This document shows, piece after piece, positions 1,537 to 20,942 of a DNA stretch of 23,264 nucleotides. Source of the DNA: a virus; the IMG/VR virus record IMGVR_UViG_3300025889_018465, positions 1-23,264 of that record; one strand, given 5' to 3'. A program made the translations under genes and the position numbers. Under the pieces are notes generated by a model that made no database searches, was not told the DNA's origin, and worked only from the letters and a program-made list of their open reading frames with translations. The first letter of the stretch is position 1. Every line of letters begins with the position of its first letter.

Positions 1537-3309
1537 TCATTGCACATACACCTTCACCTCATGCTCTGGATCGTGCCAGAGCTGCTTTGCCGAAGGGTGA
1601 AACCACAAGCGCCGCATCGGCTTAATAAAATCGCCCGCCGCATTACGCTGCTTCATGCAGTACAGCGTACTATCATGCACACACTCCAGAGCCTCCAAGT
1701 CATCCCGCAGCGCATTCATTTTATCCAGATCCGCCTGATTAAACTCGCCCCCCTTGCCCTCCAGCAAGCGCAGCGACTCATGCGCATCCCGCATACCAAA
1801 CAGCTTCACGTCATTCATGTACACACTCACCAGATTAAAACATAGGTTAGCGATCTCACCCGCGCCACGCACATCCTGCGGACGCACCGGCTTGCGAATC
1901 TGCGTCTTCTCCTCTTGCACCTTTTTCGGATGCGCCACCAGAAACAAGTGCGCGTCATACGTCTCGCAAAAAATCTTCAGCCGCTGCGCCATCTCCTTTT
2001 CCCGCTCATTGGCCGATTCACCCATTCCCAAATCACTCTGCAGCATCATTAAGCTATCCAGCACAAACACCCGGCAACCAAAGCGCTGCGCCGTATATGC
2101 AAACAGCTTGAGCACCTCACTAAGCTTCACAAAGCCCACCTTATTATAGCAAAACACCCGCTCATTCATCCAGTCCACACAGCGATCAAACCAAGCCTCA
2201 TCCGGATCGCCCGAAGGCAGCTTAACCGGGCGCACACAGCCCATAGCCTGCTGAAACATCACCGAAAAATTCTTTGCTGGGTCTGCCTCCAGTGAGGCCA
2301 CACAAGAGCGCACCCCATACTGCGCCGCCAGATCCACTATTTGATGCCCCAGCCAAGTCGTCTTCCCATGTCCCTCATAGCCCGTCACCAAAGTCCACTC
2401 ACCCAGCCGCCAGCGCAAATGGTCGCCCATACCATGCACCTCAAAGCCCTCCGTTTCACCCTCCCGGCCAAACAACTTCACCCAAATTTTGTCCCGCATA
2501 TTCCGCACCTGCGCCAACTCCGACGGCGTCGGCTCTTTCGCAGCCGCCAACAATCTCAAAATATGCCCCTTATCCATCGCAAATAAATCATACACCTCCG
2601 TGCCCTCCACCGCCTTCGGCCATACATCCGTCACCCGCGCCAACTTGCGCCGCAGCCCCTCCGGCAAGCGCCTAAAAATCGTCTCCTCAGCCGCAGCCAC
2701 CCCCTCGACATGCCCAAAACAAAGCACCACCTCCTCAAGTGACTCTAAAAAATCCCAATCCGCATCCAGCCATCGATTCGTTGCACACTCCTTGCCATCC
2801 CCACCATCCGGGCGCGGACGCCACGGCAGCGCCAGCGCCGGCACCCCCGCCGACCAACACGCCAACCAACTCAACTCACACCCACACAATACCACCGACT
2901 TATGCACTTGCGGATCAATCAAGCCCTGACCCACCAAATGGCAGGCATCCCCCCGCCGCATCGCATTCCGTGAAGCTTCCCCAGGCACCTCCGCCTCTAA
3001 ATCCAGCGCAAAATACTTCGCACTCACCAAATCCTTCGTGCCCGGAGCATAAATCGGCACCACCCAACACTCCGCCGCCGCCGCACGCCCCCGCAACTGC
3101 ACAGTCGCTTCACCAATCCCCGCCCGGTGCAGCACCCGCCCATCAAAGCCACACTCATCCACCAAATACTGCCACACCCGCGATCCCTCCACCAACGGCG
3201 TAAAATCACACGTCACGCGCCGCGCCGCCGCCTGGCGCAAATCCTTCACACCCTCTGAACGCCCCCCTAAACGCTCCCAGCCCATCCGTACTTTATTTGA
3301 ACCACTCAT
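1537..3309 (-). CDS. Twinkle/DnaB-family replicative helicase with degenerate TOPRIM domain
   Basis: The 590-residue product has the architecture of phage T7 gp4-like primase-helicases. Residues about 136-215 look like a TOPRIM fold: the glutamate strand is kept (VVLCGCELSWLACWSAGVPA, Glu145), but the usual Asp-x-Asp strand reads LCFGHVEG, so both aspartates appear lost. The helicase domain has Walker A GYEGHGKTTW at 310-319, Walker B VFVLDSL at 414-420, a sensor-like LFLVAHPKK at 455-463 and RPQDVRGAGEI at 476-486. No N-terminal zinc-binding domain is visible. It should unwind DNA 5' to 3' at the phage fork; primase activity is doubtful, so priming probably depends on the host or another gene. 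Its ATG at 3309 overlaps the TGA of the upstream gene by four bases, implying translational coupling. Confidence 0.9.
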   Translation of the reverse strand: MSGSNKVRMGWERLGGRSEGVKDLRQAAARRVTCDFTPLVEGSRVWQYLVDECGFDGRVLHRAGIGEATVQLRGRAAAAECWVVPIYAPGTKDLVSAKYFALDLEAEVPGEASRNAMRRGDACHLVGQGLIDPQVHKSVVLCGCELSWLACWSAGVPALALPWRPRPDGGDGKECATNRWLDADWDFLESLEEVVLCFGHVEGVAAAEETIFRRLPEGLRRKLARVTDVWPKAVEGTEVYDLFAMDKGHILRLLAAAKEPTPSELAQVRNMRDKIWVKLFGREGETEGFEVHGMGDHLRWRLGEWTLVTGYEGHGKTTWLGHQIVDLAAQYGVRSCVASLEADPAKNFSVMFQQAMGCVRPVKLPSGDPDEAWFDRCVDWMNERVFCYNKVGFVKLSEVLKLFAYTAQRFGCRVFVLDSLMMLQSDLGMGESANEREKEMAQRLKIFCETYDAHLFLVAHPKKVQEEKTQIRKPVRPQDVRGAGEIANLCFNLVSVYMNDVKLFGMRDAHESLRLLEGKGGEFNQADLDKMNALRDDLEALECVHDSTLYCMKQRNAAGDFIKPMRRLWFHPSAKQLWHDPEHEVKVYVQ

Positions 3310-3980: not shown

Positions 3981-4010
3981 GGTTTTAGGTTTTAGGTTTT
4001 AGGTTTTAGG
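3981..4010. repeat. Tandem TTTTAGG repeat (four copies)
   Basis: The plus strand reads GG followed by four perfect copies of TTTTAGG, just upstream (in the operon sense) of the 63-residue gene's ribosome-binding site at about 3970. It resembles a telomere-type G-rich repeat, but at this length it may simply be a slippage-prone leader. Confidence 0.9.
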
Positions 4011-4030
4011 TGGTCGTCATAGATGGACAT

Positions 4031-4050
4031 TTTCCACCTATTCAACTGTT
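4031..4050. repeat. 20-bp dispersed repeat, copy A
   Basis: TTTCCACCTATTCAACTGTT at 4031-4050 recurs with one change as TTTCCAGCTATTCAACTGTT at 5671-5690 and at 5828-5847. Read on the minus strand, copy A supplies the last codons and TGA stop (AAC AGT TGA) of the zinc-ribbon gene. Confidence 0.9.
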
Positions 4051-4293
4051 ATCTAAAATTAAAAGAAGCTCATCGAGTGAATGGTCTCCCCTTAGCTTAC
4101 CCACTCTCCTTGCAAGGTCAGAATTCCCTGCCTTTGGCCCCTGAGATCCACACTTCATGCACTCCATAAAATGAATTGGCCCTTCATCATCACAAGGCTC
4201 CCATTCCGCTCGCATCTCTCCTCCGCAATACGGACAAGATAACAAGTCGCTGGAATCAACCTCGATTACATCTTCTTTGTTTCTCATAGTCAT
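4042..4293 (-). CDS. Lar-like zinc-ribbon protein (putative restriction alleviation protein)
   Basis: The 83-residue product has a two-Cys/two-Cys zinc ribbon: CPYCGGE at residues 20-26 and ECMKCGSQGP at about 44-53. The layout, CPxCGGE, then a charged loop with His/Phe, then CxxCGxxGP, is that of the Lar family of phage/Rac prophage proteins known to relieve or modulate type I restriction. The short length (Lar is about 60-70 residues) and phage context fit. The ATG at 4293 overlaps the TGA of the upstream gene (ATGA). The assignment is from motif only; a generic phage zinc-finger protein is the alternative. It ends within copy A of the 20-bp repeat. Confidence 0.65.
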   Translation of the reverse strand: MTMRNKEDVIEVDSSDLLSCPYCGGEMRAEWEPCDDEGPIHFMECMKCGSQGPKAGNSDLARRVGKLRGDHSLDELLLILDNS

Positions 4294-4973: not shown

Positions 4974-5417
4974 TCAGTCGTTAGATGAAAAAATGACATT
5001 AATCGAATCGGCGTTCTGCAAATCAAGTAGCACGCCCTCCGAGTCTTCGCCCGACACAGTGCCCGCACACGCTCCCTTCGTATCCTGGCACGAAGTAGAA
5101 TCTGCGCTTTTCCCGTTTCCCGCAGATGACGCATTCCCCTCGTCCTGCGCGTTCCCTTTCGCGCCTCCCGCCGTGCTAATATCCTGACAGGGAAAGCCGC
5201 CAGAAACCACTTCAACACGTCCTCGCCACGGTCGCCCGTCGAAGGTTCGCACGTCGTCCCAGATCGGGAAGGGGTCGAGGCTTCCATCGTCCTGTCTGGA
5301 TTTGAGAACAGATCGCGCGTATTCATCGAACTCGACGGCGCAAACACATTTCCACCCAAGGAGTTTTCCTCCGAGAATGCCGCCACCAGCGCCTGCGAAT
5401 AATGCCAGCTCATTCAT
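4974..5417 (-). CDS. C5-cytosine DNA methyltransferase, N-terminal half only
   Basis: The 147-residue product has motif I LALFAGAGGGILGGK (residues 4-18, AdoMet binding), motif II AVEFDEYA (27-34), motif III-like IWDDVRTFDG (52-61) and motif IV GGFPCQDIST (73-82), with the catalytic Cys at 77. After residue 85 the sequence becomes Gly/Ala/Ser/Asp-rich and unrelated. Motif VI (ENV), motif VIII (QxRxR), the target-recognition domain and motifs IX-X are absent. Complete enzymes are usually 300-400 residues, so this is a truncated or fused remnant, probably inactive alone, unless a separate gene elsewhere completes it. The ATG overlaps the preceding gene by eight bases. Neighbouring Lar-like and RadC-like genes suggest restriction avoidance as the original role. 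Confidence 0.8.
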   Translation of the reverse strand: MNELALFAGAGGGILGGKLLGWKCVCAVEFDEYARSVLKSRQDDGSLDPFPIWDDVRTFDGRPWRGRVEVVSGGFPCQDISTAGGAKGNAQDEGNASSAGNGKSADSTSCQDTKGACAGTVSGEDSEGVLLDLQNADSINVIFSSND

Positions 5418-7100: not shown

Positions 7101-7394
7101 TTAGTGGTTTCCTTTGATTTTGCCGATATGGCCGATATGGCCGTAGACCTTGCCACCAATATTGCCGCTGACATAGCCGCCGATATTGCCGTTGACATAA
7201 CCGTTTAGATTCCCTTCGAGATCCCCTTCGAGATCCCCTAAGAGATTGCCGCGGACATTGCCGTAGACATTGCCGTGCAATTCGTAGACATCGCCGTAGA
7301 TAGGTCCGTAAACATCATTAATTACCCACTCCCCATTTGGGCCTATCTTAAAGCTCACAAGCTTTTCAATTTCCTCTAGACTTGGTTTTTCCAT
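7101..7394 (-). CDS. Tetrapeptide-repeat (G-x-[VLI]-x) protein, copy 1
   Basis: The 97-residue product starts MEKPSLEEIEKLVSFKIGPN, then from about residue 29 consists of four-residue repeats of the form Gly-Asn/Asp/Tyr-Val/Leu/Ile-x (for example GNVYGNVRGNLLGDLEGDLE), ending GHIGKIKGNH. The hydrophobic residue every fourth position and regular Gly suggest a repetitive beta-roll or beta-solenoid, but the period is shorter than known pentapeptide or hexapeptide helices. The start has AAAGGGAG a few bases upstream. A homologue with the same N-terminus lies on the opposite strand at 11759. No signal peptide is visible. The role is unknown. Confidence 0.78.
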   Translation of the reverse strand: MEKPSLEEIEKLVSFKIGPNGEWVINDVYGPIYGDVYELHGNVYGNVRGNLLGDLEGDLEGNLNGYVNGNIGGYVSGNIGGKVYGHIGHIGKIKGNH

Positions 7395-7422: not shown

Positions 7423-8352
7423 CTAATAATCCGGCGAAGTGTATCTCAGCGCGATTTCATCCACCCTCGACATGCGGGGGGCAGTTTTCTCGCCACGAAA
7501 GGTCTGTAGCGCCGCCGCCACTGCATCCTCGTAGTACCAATCCTGCCACACCTTCTCCGAGCAGATTGAATTTTCCATTAAGCCCACCACCACCGAAGCC
7601 GGCAAAGGCTCCCTGGGGGGATTTATTATCGACGACTTTTCGCCCTTAAAACCGCAGCACCGGGCCGCATCCCGCCGGGCCAGCATAAGCGACACCGACA
7701 AGCCCTGTTGCTGCCGATAGTCCATCCAGTGACGATAACCCTCTTCCAAAATGACCAGACTGGCAGTATTCCACACAAATCCCACCGGCGCACCACTCAC
7801 CAACTCATCCAAGAAACACTTGACCACATCCGCAACCGAATCTTCCAGCCGCCCCTTCTTACCCTTCTTTTCCTTCTTACCCTTCTTTCCTTCTTCTATA
7901 TATGTCGTTTCGTTGTCGTTTCGTTGTCGTTTCGATGTCGTTTCGTTGTCGTTTCGTTGTCGTTTCGTTGTCGTTTCGATGTCGTTTCGATGTCGTTTCG
8001 ATGTCGTTTCGTTGTCGTTTTGACTTTTTGGATTTTGGTAAATAGCCCAATTGCAAATACTTATATGATGATAACCTGTTGTCGAACTGCGGCCCGTACG
8101 GATGCCGATCGTGCCAGATTCCTTTAAATTTGCAAGCGCAGTACGCACCTTGCGAATAGAAAGATTCGTTTCTGCCGATAACCGATCCAATGTAGTAATT
8201 AATTCCCCTGGTTTCACCTCAATAGCCCGCCATTTTCCAGCCTTCCAGTTCGCCTTTAACAGCAAATGTATCAGCAGGCTTTTTGTGTTAAGGTCATGGT
8301 ACCACTCAGAATCAGTAAAACTCCGATAAAGCTGTATATAAGAATCACTCAT
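7423..8352 (-). CDS. Winged-helix phage replication protein with internal tandem repeats
   Basis: I start at the ATG at 8352, which overlaps the upstream stop (TAATG) and has GAAAGGAC before it; a longer frame to 8454 lacks such a site. Residues 1-105 resemble the winged-helix N-terminal domain of phage replication/DnaD-like proteins (YIQLYRSFTDSEWYHDLNTK, then TTLDRLSAETNLSIRKVRTA as the recognition helix region). Residues 111-150 are 11-residue repeats of the type NDNETTSKRQR, followed by a Lys/Gly tract (GKKGKKEKKGKKG) and a C-terminal helical domain. Such proteins bind the phage origin and bring the helicase; the helicase is in the same operon. Repeats in an initiator gene recall lambda O, whose gene contains the origin. 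Confidence 0.78.
   Translation of the reverse strand: MSDSYIQLYRSFTDSEWYHDLNTKSLLIHLLLKANWKAGKWRAIEVKPGELITTLDRLSAETNLSIRKVRTALANLKESGTIGIRTGRSSTTGYHHISICNWAIYQNPKSQNDNETTSKRHRNDIETTTKRQRNDNETTSKRQRNDNETTYIEEGKKGKKEKKGKKGRLEDSVADVVKCFLDELVSGAPVGFVWNTASLVILEEGYRHWMDYRQQQGLSVSLMLARRDAARCCGFKGEKSSIINPPREPLPASVVVGLMENSICSEKVWQDWYYEDAVAAALQTFRGEKTAPRMSRVDEIALRYTSPDY
7904..8024. repeat. Eleven tandem 11-bp repeats (candidate replication origin iterons)
   Basis: Ten units GTCGTTTCGTT or GTCGTTTCGAT (only position 10 varies, T or A) plus a degenerate eleventh (GTCGTTTTGAC) follow one another without gaps. Eleven bases is about one helical turn, so all units face the same side of the DNA. A long pyrimidine tract (7859-7897) adjoins on one side and a T-rich stretch (8016-8040) on the other. 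Origin function is inference. Confidence 0.85.

Positions 8353-10837: not shown

Positions 10838-10841
<4 letters not shown>
10356..10841 (+). CDS. Phage repressor candidate: HTH-like N-terminus plus ribbon-helix-helix C-terminal domain
   Basis: The 161-residue product has an N-terminal helical domain that looks like an HTH (SLEQWLTDNYHTRDWLAEQL, then SRRTVDNWLRSPRPIPKSKL). From about residue 74 it continues SQVITLRFDDEHFDAIEQAA with LRARKTVRQWATNSLNEMAQ, matching the beta-strand/helix/helix of Arc/Mnt-type ribbon-helix-helix repressors. A coiled C-terminus with REQQSRAWEAEHDP follows. It reads away from the early operon across two operator-like palindromes, the usual arrangement of a lysogeny repressor. 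There is no Shine-Dalgarno sequence before the ATG at 10356, as in some repressor messages. No RecA-cleavage domain is seen. Confidence 0.75.
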
Positions 10842-11173
<332 letters not shown>

Positions 11174-11225
11174 AAACGCTTGATTGATAGTCAATAAAAA
11201 ATAAACAAAAAATACTTTAAACGTG

Positions 11226-11310: not shown

Positions 11311-11718
11311 ATGAACACAGAAACATATAACGAAATGAAAAGCCGCCAAGAAGCAGAAATGAACGCATTTGATGGCATATTTTTCGCTTTTAACAAAAAA
11401 CAATTTGAAAAGGGAATCAAAAAAGTAGGTGCAAGCCCCACAAATAAAGTTGTAAAAATAGAGGCGGGTGGGTTTATCCTAAAAAAACGTATAACAGCTT
11501 TTAAGGCGCTGCTGCAAAGACACAAAGAAGAGCGCAAAAAACATCGTGCTAATAAAAAGAATTTGCTTGATGCACTTATCTATGAATTAAATAATCATGA
11601 ATACGTTATCACAGGCAATCCACAAGACGCTCTTAACGCTTTAGGTTTAACCCTTGAGGATGTGCCGAATAATTTATTAAACGATGCCTGTCATAAAGCG
11701 CTTGCATTATCTCATTGA
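11311..11718 (+). CDS. DUF7659-like protein of unknown function
   Basis: The 135-residue product begins MNTETYNEMKSRQEAEMNAF with DGIFFAFNKKQFEKGIKKVG, then KIEAGGFILKKRITAFKALL and a C-terminal part DALIYELNNHEYVITGNPQD. This pattern (FFAF then a QFxxG helix, a GGFI strand, and a YELxNHEY helix) agrees with what I recall of DUF7659, a small family found on phages and plasmids with no known function. The start has AAAAAAGGACACAAA, the same leader as the RadC-like gene. Codon use is A+T-rich compared with the leftward operon. Soluble, with no membrane segment. Confidence 0.65.
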   Translation: MNTETYNEMKSRQEAEMNAFDGIFFAFNKKQFEKGIKKVGASPTNKVVKIEAGGFILKKRITAFKALLQRHKEERKKHRANKKNLLDALIYELNNHEYVITGNPQDALNALGLTLEDVPNNLLNDACHKALALSH

Positions 11719-11730
11719 GGATAATCCTCA
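11716..11730. promoter_or_regulatory. Perfect 15-bp palindrome overlapping a stop codon
   Basis: TGAGGATAATCCTCA has 7-bp arms around a single central base, begins with the TGA of the upstream gene and ends 28 bases before the next ATG. It resembles the TGAGG...CCTCA repeat at 11266-11279. Confidence 0.6.
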
Positions 11731-11758
11731 GAAACCAAAACCACAAAAAGGAGACAAA

Positions 11759-11989
11759 ATGGAAAAACCAAGTCTAGAGAAAATTAAAGAGCTTGTGAGC
11801 TTTAAGAAAGACCAAAATGGAGAGTGGGCAGTTAATCATGTATACGGCAATGTTCATGGCCATGTTCATCGCAATGTTTATGGCCATGTTGGTGGCAATG
11901 TTCATTGCCATGTTGGTGGATCTGTTAATGGATCAGTCTGTGGCCAAGTTGATGGATCTATTGGCAGCAAAAAATGGCGTAAGGTATAA
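11759..11989 (+). CDS. Tetrapeptide-repeat protein, copy 2
   Basis: I start at the ATG at 11759, preceded by AAAAAGGAGACAAA, instead of the frame's first Met at 11684, which lies inside the previous gene. The 76-residue product begins MEKPSLEKIKELVSFKKDQN, matching the N-terminus of the opposite-strand protein at 7101-7394, and then shows G-x-V-x repeats (YGNVHGHVHRNVYGHVGGNV), ending with a basic GSIGSKKWRKV. The DNA repeat is 12 bases (GGCAATGTTCAT-like). It has fewer repeats than copy 1, which suggests repeat-number change since duplication or independent acquisition. The role is unknown. Confidence 0.78.
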   Translation: MEKPSLEKIKELVSFKKDQNGEWAVNHVYGNVHGHVHRNVYGHVGGNVHCHVGGSVNGSVCGQVDGSIGSKKWRKV

Positions 11990-12309: not shown

Positions 12310-12382
<73 letters not shown>

Positions 12383-12556
12383 CACTTCATAAGTTGCTTT
12401 AAATTATGAACTTATAACCTTGGATAGAGCGCTTTAAAAACTCTAAAACGTGCTTAATCCAGTTTTTCAATCGATATCCTGGCAAAAATAATGCAAAAAA
12501 ATAATGATTGAAACACTTGACAAAGTCGTGATTTGTGGGTAATTTTACAGGATAAG

Positions 12557-12609: not shown

Positions 12610-12647
12610 CAAACACCAAAAATAACGACAACAAAAAAGGACACAAA

Positions 12648-14905: not shown

Positions 14906-15163
14906 ATGACTACACTCAGACTTAAAAAAAGACTCACAGAAATAATCAAGAGCGATACGTGCCTAGTGTACTTATGGGCTCCACTCTTGGCGCTGATTAT
15001 CATGTGGTATATGCCGGTTGGATGGCTAATTATGATTGCCGCCACTTTTTATGATAAGGAACTACGCAAAGACGGTTGGCCTTACTGGATGATACTGGCT
15101 TACTGTATCGTCGCTACCATTCAGGTTCAGATAAATTTTCAAGTTAATACTCCGCTTGATTGA
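14906..15163 (+). CDS. Small multi-pass membrane protein (holin-like in size)
   Basis: The 85-residue product has a charged N-terminus (MTTLRLKKRLTEIIKSD) and two or three membrane segments: VYLWAPLLALIIMWYMPVGW with LIMIAATFY, then, after KELRKDGWPY, WMILAYCIVATIQVQINF. Upstream is AAAGGAGA at 13 bases. Length and topology would suit a holin, but no lysin gene is beside it, so this is only one possibility. Its end overlaps the end of the convergent giant gene by 20 bases; I see no terminator hairpin between them. Confidence 0.6.
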   Translation: MTTLRLKKRLTEIIKSDTCLVYLWAPLLALIIMWYMPVGWLIMIAATFYDKELRKDGWPYWMILAYCIVATIQVQINFQVNTPLD

Positions 15164-18100
15164 GTAACTGATCTTTTACCGCTTGCCTTGCGGCTTTACT
15201 CGGCACCGCTTGCAGTAGGCGGTACTCGAAGCTTTTGCGCATCTTATCAGCCCGCTTCCACTTGTGCTTGAGGTGTTGCATCCGGTACGGTTTTTGCTGG
15301 ATCCATTGCCACTGTTTATCGGTCAGGTCGCTGCGGCCCTGATCGTACATTTGCAGGAGCATTTTTTCGATTGCCTGGCGATCTTTTGCAGCATCTACCA
15401 GTAGTGGCTCACCGATTTCACGCGCCTTTTCGATACGGCCCCGGTTACTTACCTTCAGGAAGCGTCCGAGCGTATTCTGTACGCCTGGCGCCTTTAGTCG
15501 CCGTTCTAATTCGGTAGTGGTCGTTTGGTTGAGCGATTTACGGTCGAAACGGTGGATTAACCCACCGCCAAGCTTATTCCAGACCCACTTCCACACTTGC
15601 GTATCATCGTCGTCACCAGTGAGCATTGCATCCTGTGTAACCACTGGAGAGTTGGTAAACGAGTCTTGCGGGTTCAGGCCCGACACATAGAAATTGTACA
15701 ATCCACCAAGCACTTGAAGGAATGGATTTTCGGTAGGGAACTGATCACCGGCAAACTCCTTTAGCTCTTTAAGTGGAGTCGTGCTCTCTTCGATGGCTAC
15801 TTGCATCAGCTTACGCGCCGCGCCGTGCATCCATTTATGCCCTTCAAACAGCGGCAAGCGCAGATACTTCACTTTTTGTTGCGCTTTGTCCTCCCAGCCT
15901 ATTGGTACGATAATATAATTCGTTTTATCATATTCCGGCACAGACTTCATCTGTTCTTCGGCTTCATCGCCAGCCAGCCCCATCTCAGCCAGCATCATCA
16001 CACCCGCCGGGCCAGCCACATATGTCAGGAAACTGACACCCACACTCCACGGATTGGTTGCCACCTTCTTCCCGAAGGAGCGAATGCCCTCCCGCGCCGC
16101 ATTATAATACAGCCCGACCATCGTTTCCATGATTGGATTGCTTGACCCACGGTTTAAAAAGTCCGGCGAGCCCGCCCATTCACGGATCATTTCAGCCTTT
16201 CGGCCTTCTGGCATTGTCGGATGCTTTTGGTCGAGAAAACGCATACCCGCGATTTTCATGGTACGTTCGGCGATTTGCCCGGGAATAAAGATTGTATTCC
16301 AAGCCTTGCCAATTTTTTCAACCAGTGGCATCGCCTCCCCTTTACCCGCATGTGGATTGATTCCAAAGCGCAGCATCAATGCTTCCGAACCCGGCACCAT
16401 CCCCATCTTTTCGCCCTTCGGTGTGGCCCGGCTGATGATTACGCCGCGCTCCAGAGCTTGCTCAGTATAGGGCGCCGCGCCCCCCAGAAAGCCCCGCGCC
16501 GCATCGGCCATTGAGCCGGGAATTAATGGTAAAATTTTACGTGCCCGAGCGTCCGGTAGCTGCATAATGGCCGCACCGATGTCACGCAAAAACGCCACTG
16601 GCACGAAGCCCGGATTGTTTTGGGTAAATAGTGCTTTGCTTATATTATTGGGAATTGTAAACAAGCCAAACACCCAATCATTCATTGATTGCGCAGAGTC
16701 AAAGAAATCCGCCACTTCACGCGGCACATAATACGCCTTTGTTTCACCCGCATCCTGATACTGTAGCGTACCCACTCGATCCCCGCTAATCACCCGTGGC
16801 TTACGCCGTTTACCGTCGAAGGTGTAGCTTGCCTCCTCGATAAAATCACTGCCCTGATCAAGCATCCCCTGAACCACTGCTTTTTTAGCTTGCTCACGCT
16901 TTGCCATCCGGATCAGCGCCATATCTTTTTGCAAGGTCGCCGTGACCGGATCTTTAATTTCTCCCAACCAGCCATTTTGCCGGTAGATACGACCCGCCTC
17001 ATGGGAGCCAAAGTTAGACTCGATCAAATCACGGATCGACTCTGCCCGGCGATTCGGCTTTGCATCCAGCCCGCGCGAAAAGGTCACATACTGGTCACGC
17101 TCTAGCAAGATTTCAGTGGTTTCCGGGCTCAGTACCCCGGCTTTCATCAGCGGACTGATCACATTCTCCCGCCGCACTGCCGACCACTCTCGCCGCGCCG
17201 CCTCCAGCGCCTGCCACTGCTCATCACTCATACGCTTGCGTAGATGATCCAATTGCTCCGCCGAAGCCTTTGGATTTAAGCCCAGGGTATTGGCAATGTC
17301 TGCCCGATTATTGAAAACATGCTGGTGCAGGCTATACAGCGCCAGATCATTCAGCGATAGCCCCGCCTGCTTGATCGGCTTAAATACCCGCTCATTTACG
17401 CGGCGTAACATAAGCTCTACTCCACTATCTCTGTAGCGATAATCCCCCATCATCATCTTAGCCCGCGCAATTTCCGGCGAGCCCTTATCCAGATAGCTAA
17501 GTACGCGGCTTTGCTCCCGGAATAGCGCCCCCTGCACCCGGTTGAACGACTGCTTGAACGCCATCTTCGACATATCGGACTCATGTGCCCACTCTGCCTG
17601 CCGCTGCAACATTTCCTCCACATCCCGCATCCGCTTATCCTGTACATTGCCCGTAAGCATCAGTTCCTGGATCTGATCATACAGCCTGGAAAACTCCGGC
17701 TTATTCGCCCGGTAACGCATAAACGCATCGTAATACTTAGGCGCACGCTCCCGCAAGGCCGCCGGATTATTCAGCAAGATATTACCCATCTCGGCATACA
17801 TCTCGATCGATGTTTTAAAATAATCCGGCATTGTCTTCATGCCGTGCCACCAGGCAATCGCACCCTCGGCCTCGGCCTTCAACTCTTCGATCCAGAACAC
17901 CTGCCGCTTATTAATTTCCGCCTTCAGTAGTTCACGGTAATACTCCCGCTCACTTTTAGTCACCTTTGCCGGATCATTCTCCAACTTACGCAGGAAGGTA
18001 AACCACTTTGGCAGGTTTTCCCGCATCGCGGCCCGCACCAGCTCTTTCTTTTGCTCCGGCGTCAACCGTGCCACATAGTCATGCAGATCCGGGTCCATAT

Positions 18101-20942
18101 CCCGCGCATTGGTATTATTCCACACATTAAGGATTTCCTCCGGGCTGATATCCGTCTTTACCGCATCCGGCGACAGTTCCGCAGCCGCTAGATCCTCAGC
18201 GGCCAGCCCTTTAGCCAGCCGCCGCAAGCGCTGCCGATCCTGATCCGTCAAGGTTTGTTGCGGCCCGATCTCCCACGGGTTAAGCTGGCTTTTTAAAAAT
18301 TTCTTAGCGCTCTTAATGCGTCCCAGGATATTACCTCTCCCTTTAATCATCTTTTGCGGCAACCAGTCCACCAGGTGCATAATCTCATGGGCCAGCACTT
18401 TACTCGCGAGCACCGGTGGTTTACGCTTGGCCGCCGCCGTCGCTTCGCGCAACTGCTCCTCATACAACTGCTCCGCCAATTGCTGCACCTCCACATCCAC
18501 CTGATCTTTATTTAACTGTGCCAGCGCCTGCGCCATCGACCGCTTGCGCATCTCAGCCTTTTCCTCATCGGAGACGAGTTGAAACAGATCCGTGCGCATC
18601 TCGATTTCACCCTGTCCGCCGCGCCCGTCCGTATGTCGAAACACTCCCAGCGCCCGGCCCTTCAGTGCCCGTATCTTTTCCACCACCTTTGGATACTTAC
18701 CACCAAGCAGATCGCGGTACATCTGCACCATCTCCGGCATCTCAATCGGCAGTTCCGAGTAGTTGGGGTCATCCTTCGGAGCCACCGGAGCCTCCACCGT
18801 AGGCGCATCACCCAGCGGGCCTTGCTTAGTATTGTAGGCTTCGCCTTGTGGCTGCTCATACCCCTCTTCAGCAATACTACTGCGAGCTTGATCCAGTTCA
18901 TCCTGTTGCGCCCGAGACTTTACTCTGGGTGTGACACGCTCGCCCTCCAGCGCATAGCCCTTTGGCATCGGCATTTGCGCCGCTTTTAAAACCGAAGCGG
19001 CAAAACTTTTGCGATGCTCCACCGCATCCGCAATATACTCCTGCGGGCTTGGCCCCATCGCAAACGGGTCATCCGGATCGACCGGCTCATACGGTGCGGC
19101 ATCCACAAAATTATTATCCACATAGACCGACTCTGCCAGCGGCAGCACCAGCCGATCCTCCCCTTGCAGTACTATTTCGCCCTGATCTGGCAGTAGCTCC
19201 ACCACTTCCAAGCGTTCACCCTTTACCTGGATCGACTCGCCGACTCGCAAGCTAGAGAGCGGCACCGCATCCGTGGCCGCCTGCGCCAGCGTACGCCCCT
19301 TGTTTTCCATCAGCGCAGCGTACAGCTTGCCCTCATGCTCCAGCTTATCCATCCGCGCCGCCACCTTTGGTCGATCCTCTGCGGCCTTAGCCAATGCCCG
19401 CCACAACTCATCTGGTGATTCAAACTTAGTGCCAAAACTATCATTCAATTCACCGATCAAGGTATCTACCGGACGCCCCCCCTTATTGCGTAACATCCGC
19501 AGCACACCCTGCCCCATTGTTTCGGCATACCCATCATACTCACCACCAGAGCGATCGATTGGCGGACGAATACCGCCCAGCTCATTCACATAGTCGATCA
19601 CATCCCACTCACCATCTGCCCGCGGTGGAATCTTAAACGACGCCTTTGTTTTAGTCGCTTGCGGCTCTGGCTCCACCTGTGTAGGCCCTACCGCCCCAGC
19701 AGACTGTTGGCCCAATTGTGGCTCGACCTGCGTCTCTGCCACCGCCTCGGCCGCAGCGATAGGTGCCTGTGAAGCTTGCGCTACCTTACCCGCCGCCGTC
19801 AGCCCGCCACGCGCCGAAGCGCCGAGAATGCCACCGACAAATAGCTCAGTAACGCGCTGCTTAATGGTCTGCCAATTGACCGTATCGCGGCCATCCTGCA
19901 AAATATGTTTACCCAGTTCGTCGAGCACCTGACCTTGTGCCATCTCAGGCAATCCCTCCGCCGCAAAGCCCTTCAATAGTTCGCGGCGGATACTCGGATC
20001 AGCCAGCTTTTTCAATACATCCTTTGTCGGTCCCTGTAATTTGCGCGTGATCAGTTTAAGTGGGCCATATTCCAGTGCCCCCCCGATCACCGAGTACAGC
20101 CCTGCCATCATCTCGGTACGGCCGCGCTCCTCATCATTCATCTGGTGCAGCGGCTTACCCATACTTGCCTCTGCATCCTGTAGCGCCTCATCATACATTT
20201 GCGGCACGAGTCCGGTGCCCAGCGTCGCCATTTGCCCGACGAGCTGCACCGCACCCTCTAGTAACATTCCCTCCAGGCTATTGCGATACTCAGGATCTTC
20301 GCCATACACCTGGCCCGCCACCGTATGGATCTCTTTGGCAAATGCAGAGATAGCCTCCGGGCGTAGCTGCACCTCAGCCCGTGCGCCCCGTGGCGTAGCG
20401 GTGCCGAGTGGCAAGGTGCGCACACTCTCTTGCGCCACCTTACTGCCGATCTCAATCGCGCCCCGCAACATGGAAGCGTCCAGTCGCGCCGCAGCGGATG
20501 CAATCGTGGCCAGGCGCTTCTTAAAAAATCCAGATCCCTGCTCCGGCCGCTCGACCAGATCACCCCGTCCGTGCGCTTGAGCAATATCGGTTAAATCCGC
20601 ATGATAAGCCTGTGGCAACGCATCCAGATCCCGCTCTCCAGACTGAAGTGCCTCCCACTGGCGTTCGACCTCCGGCGCATACAAACGGCGCGTCACCGGC
20701 ACTGTATTAGTGGCCGGCACATCCGCATCCATCCCCGTCGAGCCACCCTGCCAGCGCTTGCGCCCCGTATCAATCTGCACCTGCTCAGAGTGCTTGGCAT
20801 ACCAAGCTTGCTTGACCGCCGCCAGGTGCGCATCATCCAAGCGGTTTAAATCCTGCGCCAGCCCAGGATCCCCCCGTACTGCCGTGCGCAACGCTTCATC
20901 CAGTGCGCCATAGGCCTCTTGCGAATTACTAAATACTTGCAT
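15144..20942 (-). CDS. Giant virion-type protein (1932 residues) with zinc metallopeptidase motif
   Basis: A single uninterrupted frame. Residues about 150-400 are Ala/Gly-rich helices, some amphipathic (GAVQLVGQMATLGTG, then VIGGALEYGPLKLITRK). A Pro/Ala linker near 410-440 precedes a domain beginning WDVIDYVNELGGIRPPIDRS. Around residue 850 is VLAHEIMHLVDWLP, with the HExxH zinc motif (His852, Glu853, His856), and TSIEMYAEMGNILLNNP near 1044 could give the third ligand (Glu1047). After 1100 come long helices and a region (SNFGSHEAGRIYRQNGWLGE, later NNISKALFTQNNPGFVPVAF) like the large polyvalent-protein domains of phage ejection proteins. Probably packaged in the virion and injected with DNA, the peptidase acting on a host or virion protein. 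The start lacks a clear ribosome-binding site. Confidence 0.8.
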   Translation of the reverse strand: MQVFSNSQEAYGALDEALRTAVRGDPGLAQDLNRLDDAHLAAVKQAWYAKHSEQVQIDTGRKRWQGGSTGMDADVPATNTVPVTRRLYAPEVERQWEALQSGERDLDALPQAYHADLTDIAQAHGRGDLVERPEQGSGFFKKRLATIASAAARLDASMLRGAIEIGSKVAQESVRTLPLGTATPRGARAEVQLRPEAISAFAKEIHTVAGQVYGEDPEYRNSLEGMLLEGAVQLVGQMATLGTGLVPQMYDEALQDAEASMGKPLHQMNDEERGRTEMMAGLYSVIGGALEYGPLKLITRKLQGPTKDVLKKLADPSIRRELLKGFAAEGLPEMAQGQVLDELGKHILQDGRDTVNWQTIKQRVTELFVGGILGASARGGLTAAGKVAQASQAPIAAAEAVAETQVEPQLGQQSAGAVGPTQVEPEPQATKTKASFKIPPRADGEWDVIDYVNELGGIRPPIDRSGGEYDGYAETMGQGVLRMLRNKGGRPVDTLIGELNDSFGTKFESPDELWRALAKAAEDRPKVAARMDKLEHEGKLYAALMENKGRTLAQAATDAVPLSSLRVGESIQVKGERLEVVELLPDQGEIVLQGEDRLVLPLAESVYVDNNFVDAAPYEPVDPDDPFAMGPSPQEYIADAVEHRKSFAASVLKAAQMPMPKGYALEGERVTPRVKSRAQQDELDQARSSIAEEGYEQPQGEAYNTKQGPLGDAPTVEAPVAPKDDPNYSELPIEMPEMVQMYRDLLGGKYPKVVEKIRALKGRALGVFRHTDGRGGQGEIEMRTDLFQLVSDEEKAEMRKRSMAQALAQLNKDQVDVEVQQLAEQLYEEQLREATAAAKRKPPVLASKVLAHEIMHLVDWLPQKMIKGRGNILGRIKSAKKFLKSQLNPWEIGPQQTLTDQDRQRLRRLAKGLAAEDLAAAELSPDAVKTDISPEEILNVWNNTNARDMDPDLHDYVARLTPEQKKELVRAAMRENLPKWFTFLRKLENDPAKVTKSEREYYRELLKAEINKRQVFWIEELKAEAEGAIAWWHGMKTMPDYFKTSIEMYAEMGNILLNNPAALRERAPKYYDAFMRYRANKPEFSRLYDQIQELMLTGNVQDKRMRDVEEMLQRQAEWAHESDMSKMAFKQSFNRVQGALFREQSRVLSYLDKGSPEIARAKMMMGDYRYRDSGVELMLRRVNERVFKPIKQAGLSLNDLALYSLHQHVFNNRADIANTLGLNPKASAEQLDHLRKRMSDEQWQALEAARREWSAVRRENVISPLMKAGVLSPETTEILLERDQYVTFSRGLDAKPNRRAESIRDLIESNFGSHEAGRIYRQNGWLGEIKDPVTATLQKDMALIRMAKREQAKKAVVQGMLDQGSDFIEEASYTFDGKRRKPRVISGDRVGTLQYQDAGETKAYYVPREVADFFDSAQSMNDWVFGLFTIPNNISKALFTQNNPGFVPVAFLRDIGAAIMQLPDARARKILPLIPGSMADAARGFLGGAAPYTEQALERGVIISRATPKGEKMGMVPGSEALMLRFGINPHAGKGEAMPLVEKIGKAWNTIFIPGQIAERTMKIAGMRFLDQKHPTMPEGRKAEMIREWAGSPDFLNRGSSNPIMETMVGLYYNAAREGIRSFGKKVATNPWSVGVSFLTYVAGPAGVMMLAEMGLAGDEAEEQMKSVPEYDKTNYIIVPIGWEDKAQQKVKYLRLPLFEGHKWMHGAARKLMQVAIEESTTPLKELKEFAGDQFPTENPFLQVLGGLYNFYVSGLNPQDSFTNSPVVTQDAMLTGDDDDTQVWKWVWNKLGGGLIHRFDRKSLNQTTTTELERRLKAPGVQNTLGRFLKVSNRGRIEKAREIGEPLLVDAAKDRQAIEKMLLQMYDQGRSDLTDKQWQWIQQKPYRMQHLKHKWKRADKMRKSFEYRLLQAVPSKAARQAVKDQLLNQAEY

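Follow-up and report, generated by a model that had tools for sequence, protein, structure and literature searches.

A probable replication origin of 11-bp direct repeats inside a phage initiator gene, and a putative one-residue code for its recognition

The initiator gene, its DNA-binding domain and its probable partner

The DNA analysed here, hereafter the window, is a stretch of 23,264 nucleotides from a viral contig. Its minus strand carries, at positions 7423 to 8352, a gene of 309 residues with a likely ATG start at 8352 and a stop at 7423, which we assigned to the O-like/DnaD-like replisome organizers (initiators) from its open reading frame, PHROG profiles and tblastn searches. The protein matches PHROG_2514 (E 7.9e-23), PHROG_186 (2.1e-18) and PHROG_345, annotated as 'replication initiation O-like' (1.1e-9). 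These matches cover the N-terminal half of the protein and extend into the repeat region described below (residues 2-158 for PHROG_2514 and PHROG_186), and the C-terminal half found no match in the phage collection searched. When residues 1-109 were used as a tblastn query, relatives were retrieved from Vibrio, Cellulophaga, Listeria and Pseudomonas phages, together with gp18 of the P22-like phage ST64T; several of these relatives carry the annotation of DNA replication protein or of DnaD-like helicase loader.

The N-terminal region (residues 1-110; 8023 to 8352, minus strand) is predicted to form a winged-helix DNA-binding domain. Indeed, its AlphaFold2 model has a mean pLDDT of 90, a winged helix-turn-helix (wHTH) topology and a two-stranded wing. 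DSSP analysis of the model places the recognition helix at residues 66-79 (8116 to 8157, minus strand), and the candidate specificity residue, R67 (codon 8152-8154, minus strand; column 84 of our alignment), falls within this helix. A sequence search of the PDB gave an HTH regulator as its sole match below 0.01. At the level of folds, the closest solved structures include RepA_N initiators (4pql, Z 9.3 over 95 residues; 4pt7, 9.1; 5kbj, 8.3), but unrelated wHTH proteins score about as high as 4pql and the Foldseek E-values are weak; a fold family missing from this match list was not taken as excluded. The RepA_N Pfam domain has no match in the window protein, for which only weak hits to HTH_36 and GntR, below the cut-off, were obtained.

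A primase/helicase gene (1537 to 3309, minus strand; PHROG_239 'DNA primase/helicase', E 6e-47) is the probable partner of the initiator. It is transcribed in the same direction and lies 4 kb downstream of the initiator gene, thus not adjacent to it, and in several relatives a replicative helicase gene directly follows the initiator gene.

An array of eleven units and the tract beside it

Within the initiator gene, TRF and direct reading delimit an array of eleven 11-bp units (7903 to 8023, minus strand), which we propose as initiator-binding iterons. The plus strand shows ten TGTCGTTTCGW units (7903-8012) and then a degenerate eleventh, TGTCGTTTTGA (8013-8023); the coding-strand form of the unit is CGACAWCGAAA. 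Ten of the eleven units are exact except at a single T/A position. The initial annotation had already described ten near-identical units and one degenerate unit varying at one T/A position, and both methods agree with this description, its coordinates (7904-8024) being correct within one base. The TRF call (7903-8020) has a period of 11, 10.7 copies, 96% matches and a score of 208, and the lag-11 identity of the array is 0.96. Eleven matches to the unit with at most one mismatch are present in the window (ten in the array and one stray at 12626) where 0.99 would be expected by chance, and none of 100 shuffles reached this number. The same search found no second cluster of units outside the array in the window.

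It had also been suggested that the 11-bp spacing keeps all units on one face of the helix. The head-to-tail arrangement at 11-bp intervals is correct, but the single face is only approximate: 11 bp is not exactly one helical turn (about 10.5 bp), each unit is rotated by about 17 degrees relative to the previous one, and eleven units sweep roughly half a turn. The GC skew, put forward at the same time as a means to locate an origin, was uninformative, since along the window it follows gene direction and gives no origin signal at 7.9 kb.

Immediately downstream of the array lies a purine-rich tract (TATATAGAAGAAGGAAAGAAGGG...; 7853 to 7902, minus strand), which its stability and composition designate as a candidate strand-opening element. 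It is less stable than about 96% of the 50-bp windows of the contig, and the first 50 bp past the array are 50-80% AT and 70-100% purine per 10 bp. A comparable trend is found among the 213 relatives whose arrays could be registered: from 0 to 50 bp 3′ of the array, AT content goes up from about 0.60 to 0.71-0.81, the purine fraction of the sense strand is 0.66-0.81, and nearest-neighbour stability is -1.05 to -1.15 versus about -1.28 kcal/mol per step.

Two other functions for such an array have to be weighed here. First, a unit of 11 bp is not a whole number of codons. Adding or removing a single unit would shift the reading frame and switch the protein off, so that the array could be a slippage-prone contingency locus. 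In this phage the units are numerous and nearly perfect, which makes slippage plausible. However, the window array is the longest of the 213 (10.7 units versus a median of 4.1), and the about four imperfect units of most relatives are poor slippage substrates. Moreover, a near-identical contig, L009, has an identical array with the same number of units, and slippage leaves unexplained the residue-dinucleotide code presented below; we regard this reading as extremely unlikely. Second, segregation systems use short head-to-tail repeats bound by winged-helix proteins, and a TubR chain is among the weak fold matches. It is nonetheless exceedingly improbable that the wHTH protein binds the array as a partition centromere or as an incompatibility locus, in the manner of TubR on direct repeats: no motor gene was recognised beside the array in the window, and the initiator families and the helicase neighbours point to replication.

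The window holds several other features that we record for completeness. Fourteen perfect TCTG tetranucleotides (10845-10901) encode TDRQ repeats at the end of a minus-strand open reading frame (10838-11194); this classic slippage-prone repeat is a possible phase-variation site. Four GGTTTTA heptamers lie in an intergenic gap (3981-4011), and at positions 4048-4051 of the window L009 has about 290 extra bases (L009 6383-6671) that are absent from the window. Two paralogous small proteins (7101-7394, minus strand; 11684-11989, plus strand) both have MEKPSLE near their start and contain 12-bp DNA repeats coding for G-N-V-Y/H repeats, with no Pfam match. A C-5 cytosine methyltransferase gene (4974-5417, minus strand) looks truncated, with only its start present (profile positions 4-88 of 324). 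A tRNA-Thr (TGT) gene (12310-12383) separates two groups of genes and lies upstream of one that is RadC-like; it may be a tRNA of the phage or serve as an attachment site. Finally, for a protein of 1932 residues (15144-20942, minus strand), the sole match is a sub-threshold one to LPD38, a large polyvalent protein domain.

The 11-bp period is held at the DNA level

Relatives of the window wHTH domain were retrieved by sequence similarity among phage records and among contigs of viruses and genomes. A profile that combined eight dissimilar wHTH domains proved too divergent to find the loci and was replaced by closer sub-alignments. The 254 non-redundant relatives come from phages and prophages of many bacterial phyla; 244 were long enough for the test, which covered 180 bases around the end of the wHTH domain and beyond it. 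As later queries were picked by unit type, the frequencies of unit types are no census, but the association between residue and bases is independent of them.

In these 244 relatives, mean lag scores are 18.6 at lag 11, 13.0 at lag 22 and 10.2 at lag 33, with lags 10, 13 and 14 near 4.7, and lag 11 is the best lag in 138 of them. A lag-11 score of at least 12 is reached by 73% of the 244 initiator segments and by none of the 369 coding segments taken as controls at these loci, for which the mean score is 3.9. The sequence of the unit is specific to each phage, yet uniform inside each array.

The initial annotation left room for the array being just a protein linker, the DNA repeat being incidental to a flexible 11-residue protein repeat. 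In favour of such a reading, the array encodes a charged, low-complexity stretch between two domains of the window protein; likewise, in the pSK41-type RepA_N Rep protein, the N-terminal wHTH recognises Rep boxes located in the central part of rep, and the protein segment encoded by this origin region is described as a linker (PMC5703833). Nevertheless, steps of 11 bp do not match whole codons; the codon phase changes from one unit to the next, and a repeat needed by the protein would only require a period of 33 bp. The period found is 11 bp and it survives synonymous nulls: in 132 relatives, the lag-11 score averages 17.4 as observed and 6.6 after resampling of synonymous codons, the observed score exceeding the null in 101/132 at p<=0.05 and in 74/132 at p<=0.005, the floor of the test. 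For the window itself, the lag-11 score is 97 as compared to a null mean of 11.5 (p<0.001). Thus the repeat is held at the DNA level. In addition, a dinucleotide of the unit follows a residue that is encoded outside the array (see below). The comparison of homologues proposed to decide the matter therefore goes against a linker only, the 11-bp period of the DNA being kept while unit sequences are phage-specific, and we consider this explanation, which the synonymous nulls and the covariation contradict, as very unlikely.

We also delimited the reach of the 11-bp period. Its extension to the whole of the DnaD-like (PHROG_186) or O-like (PHROG_345) initiators was tried and rejected, as an 11-bp array is lacking in many of them. 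Members of PHROG_186 with a window-type wHTH carry the array and most others do not. As judged from the sequences, the rule belongs to the wHTH family of the window (the PHROG_2514 group) and not to PHROG_186 or PHROG_345 at large. The idea that a conserved Gln codon is always in phase with the array was also tried; the phase proved near-fixed but not exact, and the idea was dropped. Three matches were found in a plasmid collection, one of which, from Segatella (L598), has no 11-bp array. Finally, two near-identical phages (L011 and L012) have composite arrays, made of an in-frame repeat of 12 bp (CAACCTAACAAT) plus an 11-bp part, and these arrays differ by one 12-bp unit, indicating a recent change in unit number.

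One residue of the recognition helix predicts a dinucleotide of the unit

The 213 arrays were registered by circular-shift alignment, as anchoring on CA had shifted CCAAC-type arrays by one base. Their consensus is C-[A/C]-A-n-C-n-A-n-n-N9-N10, in which N9N10 is about 95% uniform within an array and variable between phages (AA 86, GA 61, GG 35, CA 11, CC 8, CG 5, and others). In each of the three codon phases, the dinucleotide agrees with the consensus of its array in 89-92.5% of units.

A single column of the wHTH alignment predicts N9N10. This is column 84, corresponding to residue 67 of the window protein in the recognition helix. Among pairs of proteins at 35-60% identity, both arrays have the same dinucleotide in 93% of cases if residue 67 is shared and in 7% if it is not, whereas the next best column gives a difference of only 0.35. 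Sorted by residue 67, Q goes with AA (76/76), R with GA (54/59), K with GG (33/33), D with CC (8/9) and M with AA (3/3), while N and S are found with mixed dinucleotides. A second coupling joins R at residue 55 and a C as the first base of the unit (44/47). In its best register, the window follows both, with GA for R67 and A for a residue other than R at position 55. Its unit is atypical in having G at position 4, where 86% have C, and this register is the best by only 0.6 bit on the invariant positions, but clearly so once N8-N10 are included (5.4 versus -1.1 bits).

This association also appears between near relatives. From the near-relative pairs we kept those whose two residues both belong to the code (Q, R, K, D or M) and call for different dinucleotides, which left 67 disjoint pairs with a mean identity of 60%. 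The dinucleotide differs in all 67, and in 63 of them both members follow the table; for instance, two proteins that are 85% identical have Q with CCAACAAATAA (L107) and R with CCAACAAACGA (L100). On a tree of the wHTH domain built without the code column, the minimum number of changes is 78 for residue 67 and 76 for the dinucleotide. This domain is short and support is weak, so that only 5-6 independent switches are located on well-supported branches; there, agreeing switches number about 5.5 out of 6 for Q/AA, 6 out of 6 for K/GG and 3.6 out of 5 for R/GA. Furthermore, 39 additional non-redundant relatives were held out, and their arrays registered with no use of the dinucleotide; all 24 testable cases among them were predicted correctly, and two more loci from the plasmid collection agree by eye (R with CAAGCAACTGA; K with CAGGCAAAGGG).

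Since the codon of residue 67 lies outside the array, this coupling cannot arise from shared coding. Most likely, each initiator reads the array in its own gene, and the table suggests a simple, readable protein-DNA code in which one residue predicts two letters of the unit.

Covariation of this kind shows that the DNA is read, but not that an origin fires. A wHTH protein bound within its own gene could obstruct transcription, and the array could be an operator through which the protein represses or times its own expression, replication starting elsewhere. We consider this unlikely, given that the protein belongs to initiator families, that the array lies within the gene body and is followed by an easily melted tract, that a second cluster of units is missing from the window, and that the lactococcal and lambda precedents described below are origins. 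A dual role as operator and origin is possible.

Comparison with known initiators and their origins

In lambda-type systems (lambda, Stx phages and P22-type gp18), as in the window, the iterons are located in the initiator gene after the part encoding the N-terminal DNA-binding domain, and in the annotated lambda origin an AT-rich tract follows the iterons in O. The iterons themselves differ: those of lambda are 18 bp long, about 20-24 bp apart and have inverted symmetry, while the window has eleven non-palindromic 11-bp direct repeats. Accordingly, the window array does not conform to the lambda-type pattern of 18-bp iterons with inverted symmetry, and no 11-bp period was detected in lambda O by the lag test. 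ST64T gp18, a sequence relative of the window N-terminal domain, contains six TGTCCA-type sites in two groups of three that are 44 bp apart, which corresponds to an 11-bp register, followed by an AT-rich stretch.

The likeness to lambda had been noticed in the initial annotation, which proposed a convergent version of it. The lambda-like arrangement stands, but convergence is not established, because the N-terminal domain has recognisable kin among the O-type proteins of lambdoid phages, for example ST64T/P22-type gp18, and common descent of the arrangement is equally possible.

The initiators of the lactococcal phages Tuc2009 and TP901-1 are reported to bind direct repeats in their own genes, which act as ori (PMC8965321). 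Like the window family, Tuc2009 Rep and r1t ORF11 have four units spaced 11 bp, and both depart from the synonymous null (p 0.0005; r1t at lag 11 and Tuc2009 at lag 22), but their N-terminal sequence family is different from that of the window. In TP901-1 ORF13, the lag test gave a 15-bp period and no 11-bp period. Right after the 11-bp array, both r1t (L189, 3252-3292) and Tuc2009 (L191, 4488-4544) have a second repeat with a period of 5/15 bp (TAGAT/TAGGA-like), which is perhaps an unwinding element. Finally, RepA_N systems differ from the window in having four Rep boxes and not an 11-bp array (PMC5703833).

An origin inside the initiator gene is already known, from a few model phages and plasmids. 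The new part, within the literature searched, is the general 11-bp geometry and the one-residue code, neither of which was found there; an earlier description of the r1t repeats is possible (Zuniga 2002).

Proposed origin function

Taken as a whole, these observations are best explained if the array is a replication origin, or its initiator-binding half, inside the initiator gene, to which we give a probability of about 85%. The possible internal origin of the initial annotation thus gains support from the conservation of the 11-bp period in the DNA and from covariation with the recognition helix, both of which, like the array, the modelled fold and the unstable tract, are direct outcomes of the computations. 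Origin function itself we infer from the initiator families and from the lambda and lactococcal precedents.

The following scheme can be proposed. Each 11-bp unit would bind one winged-helix domain of the encoded protein, one monomer per unit, so that successive monomers would follow each other head to tail at intervals of about one turn. Residue 67, which lies at the beginning of the recognition helix, would largely set specificity, R67 of the window protein reading the GA of cGA-CA. Once filled with initiator, the array would strain the adjacent AT- and purine-rich tract, which would open. The C-terminal part of the initiator and partner proteins may then recruit and load the helicase, completing the start of replication, and the origin would fire.

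More broadly, we lean towards the view, held with some reserve, that a very large initiator family spread across phyla reads 11-bp arrays in its own genes by means of a near-deterministic one-residue code (Q for AA, R for GA, K for GG and D for CC, plus R55 for C at position 1). If this is true, the origin specificity of many uncultured phages would be predictable from sequence, and so would be the compatibility of co-infecting phages and the hijacking of origins by satellites. A switch of specificity would then consist of one amino-acid change together with a concerted rewriting of all units across three reading frames. How units that span three frames change simultaneously when one recognition residue changes is an evolutionary question that this family raises.
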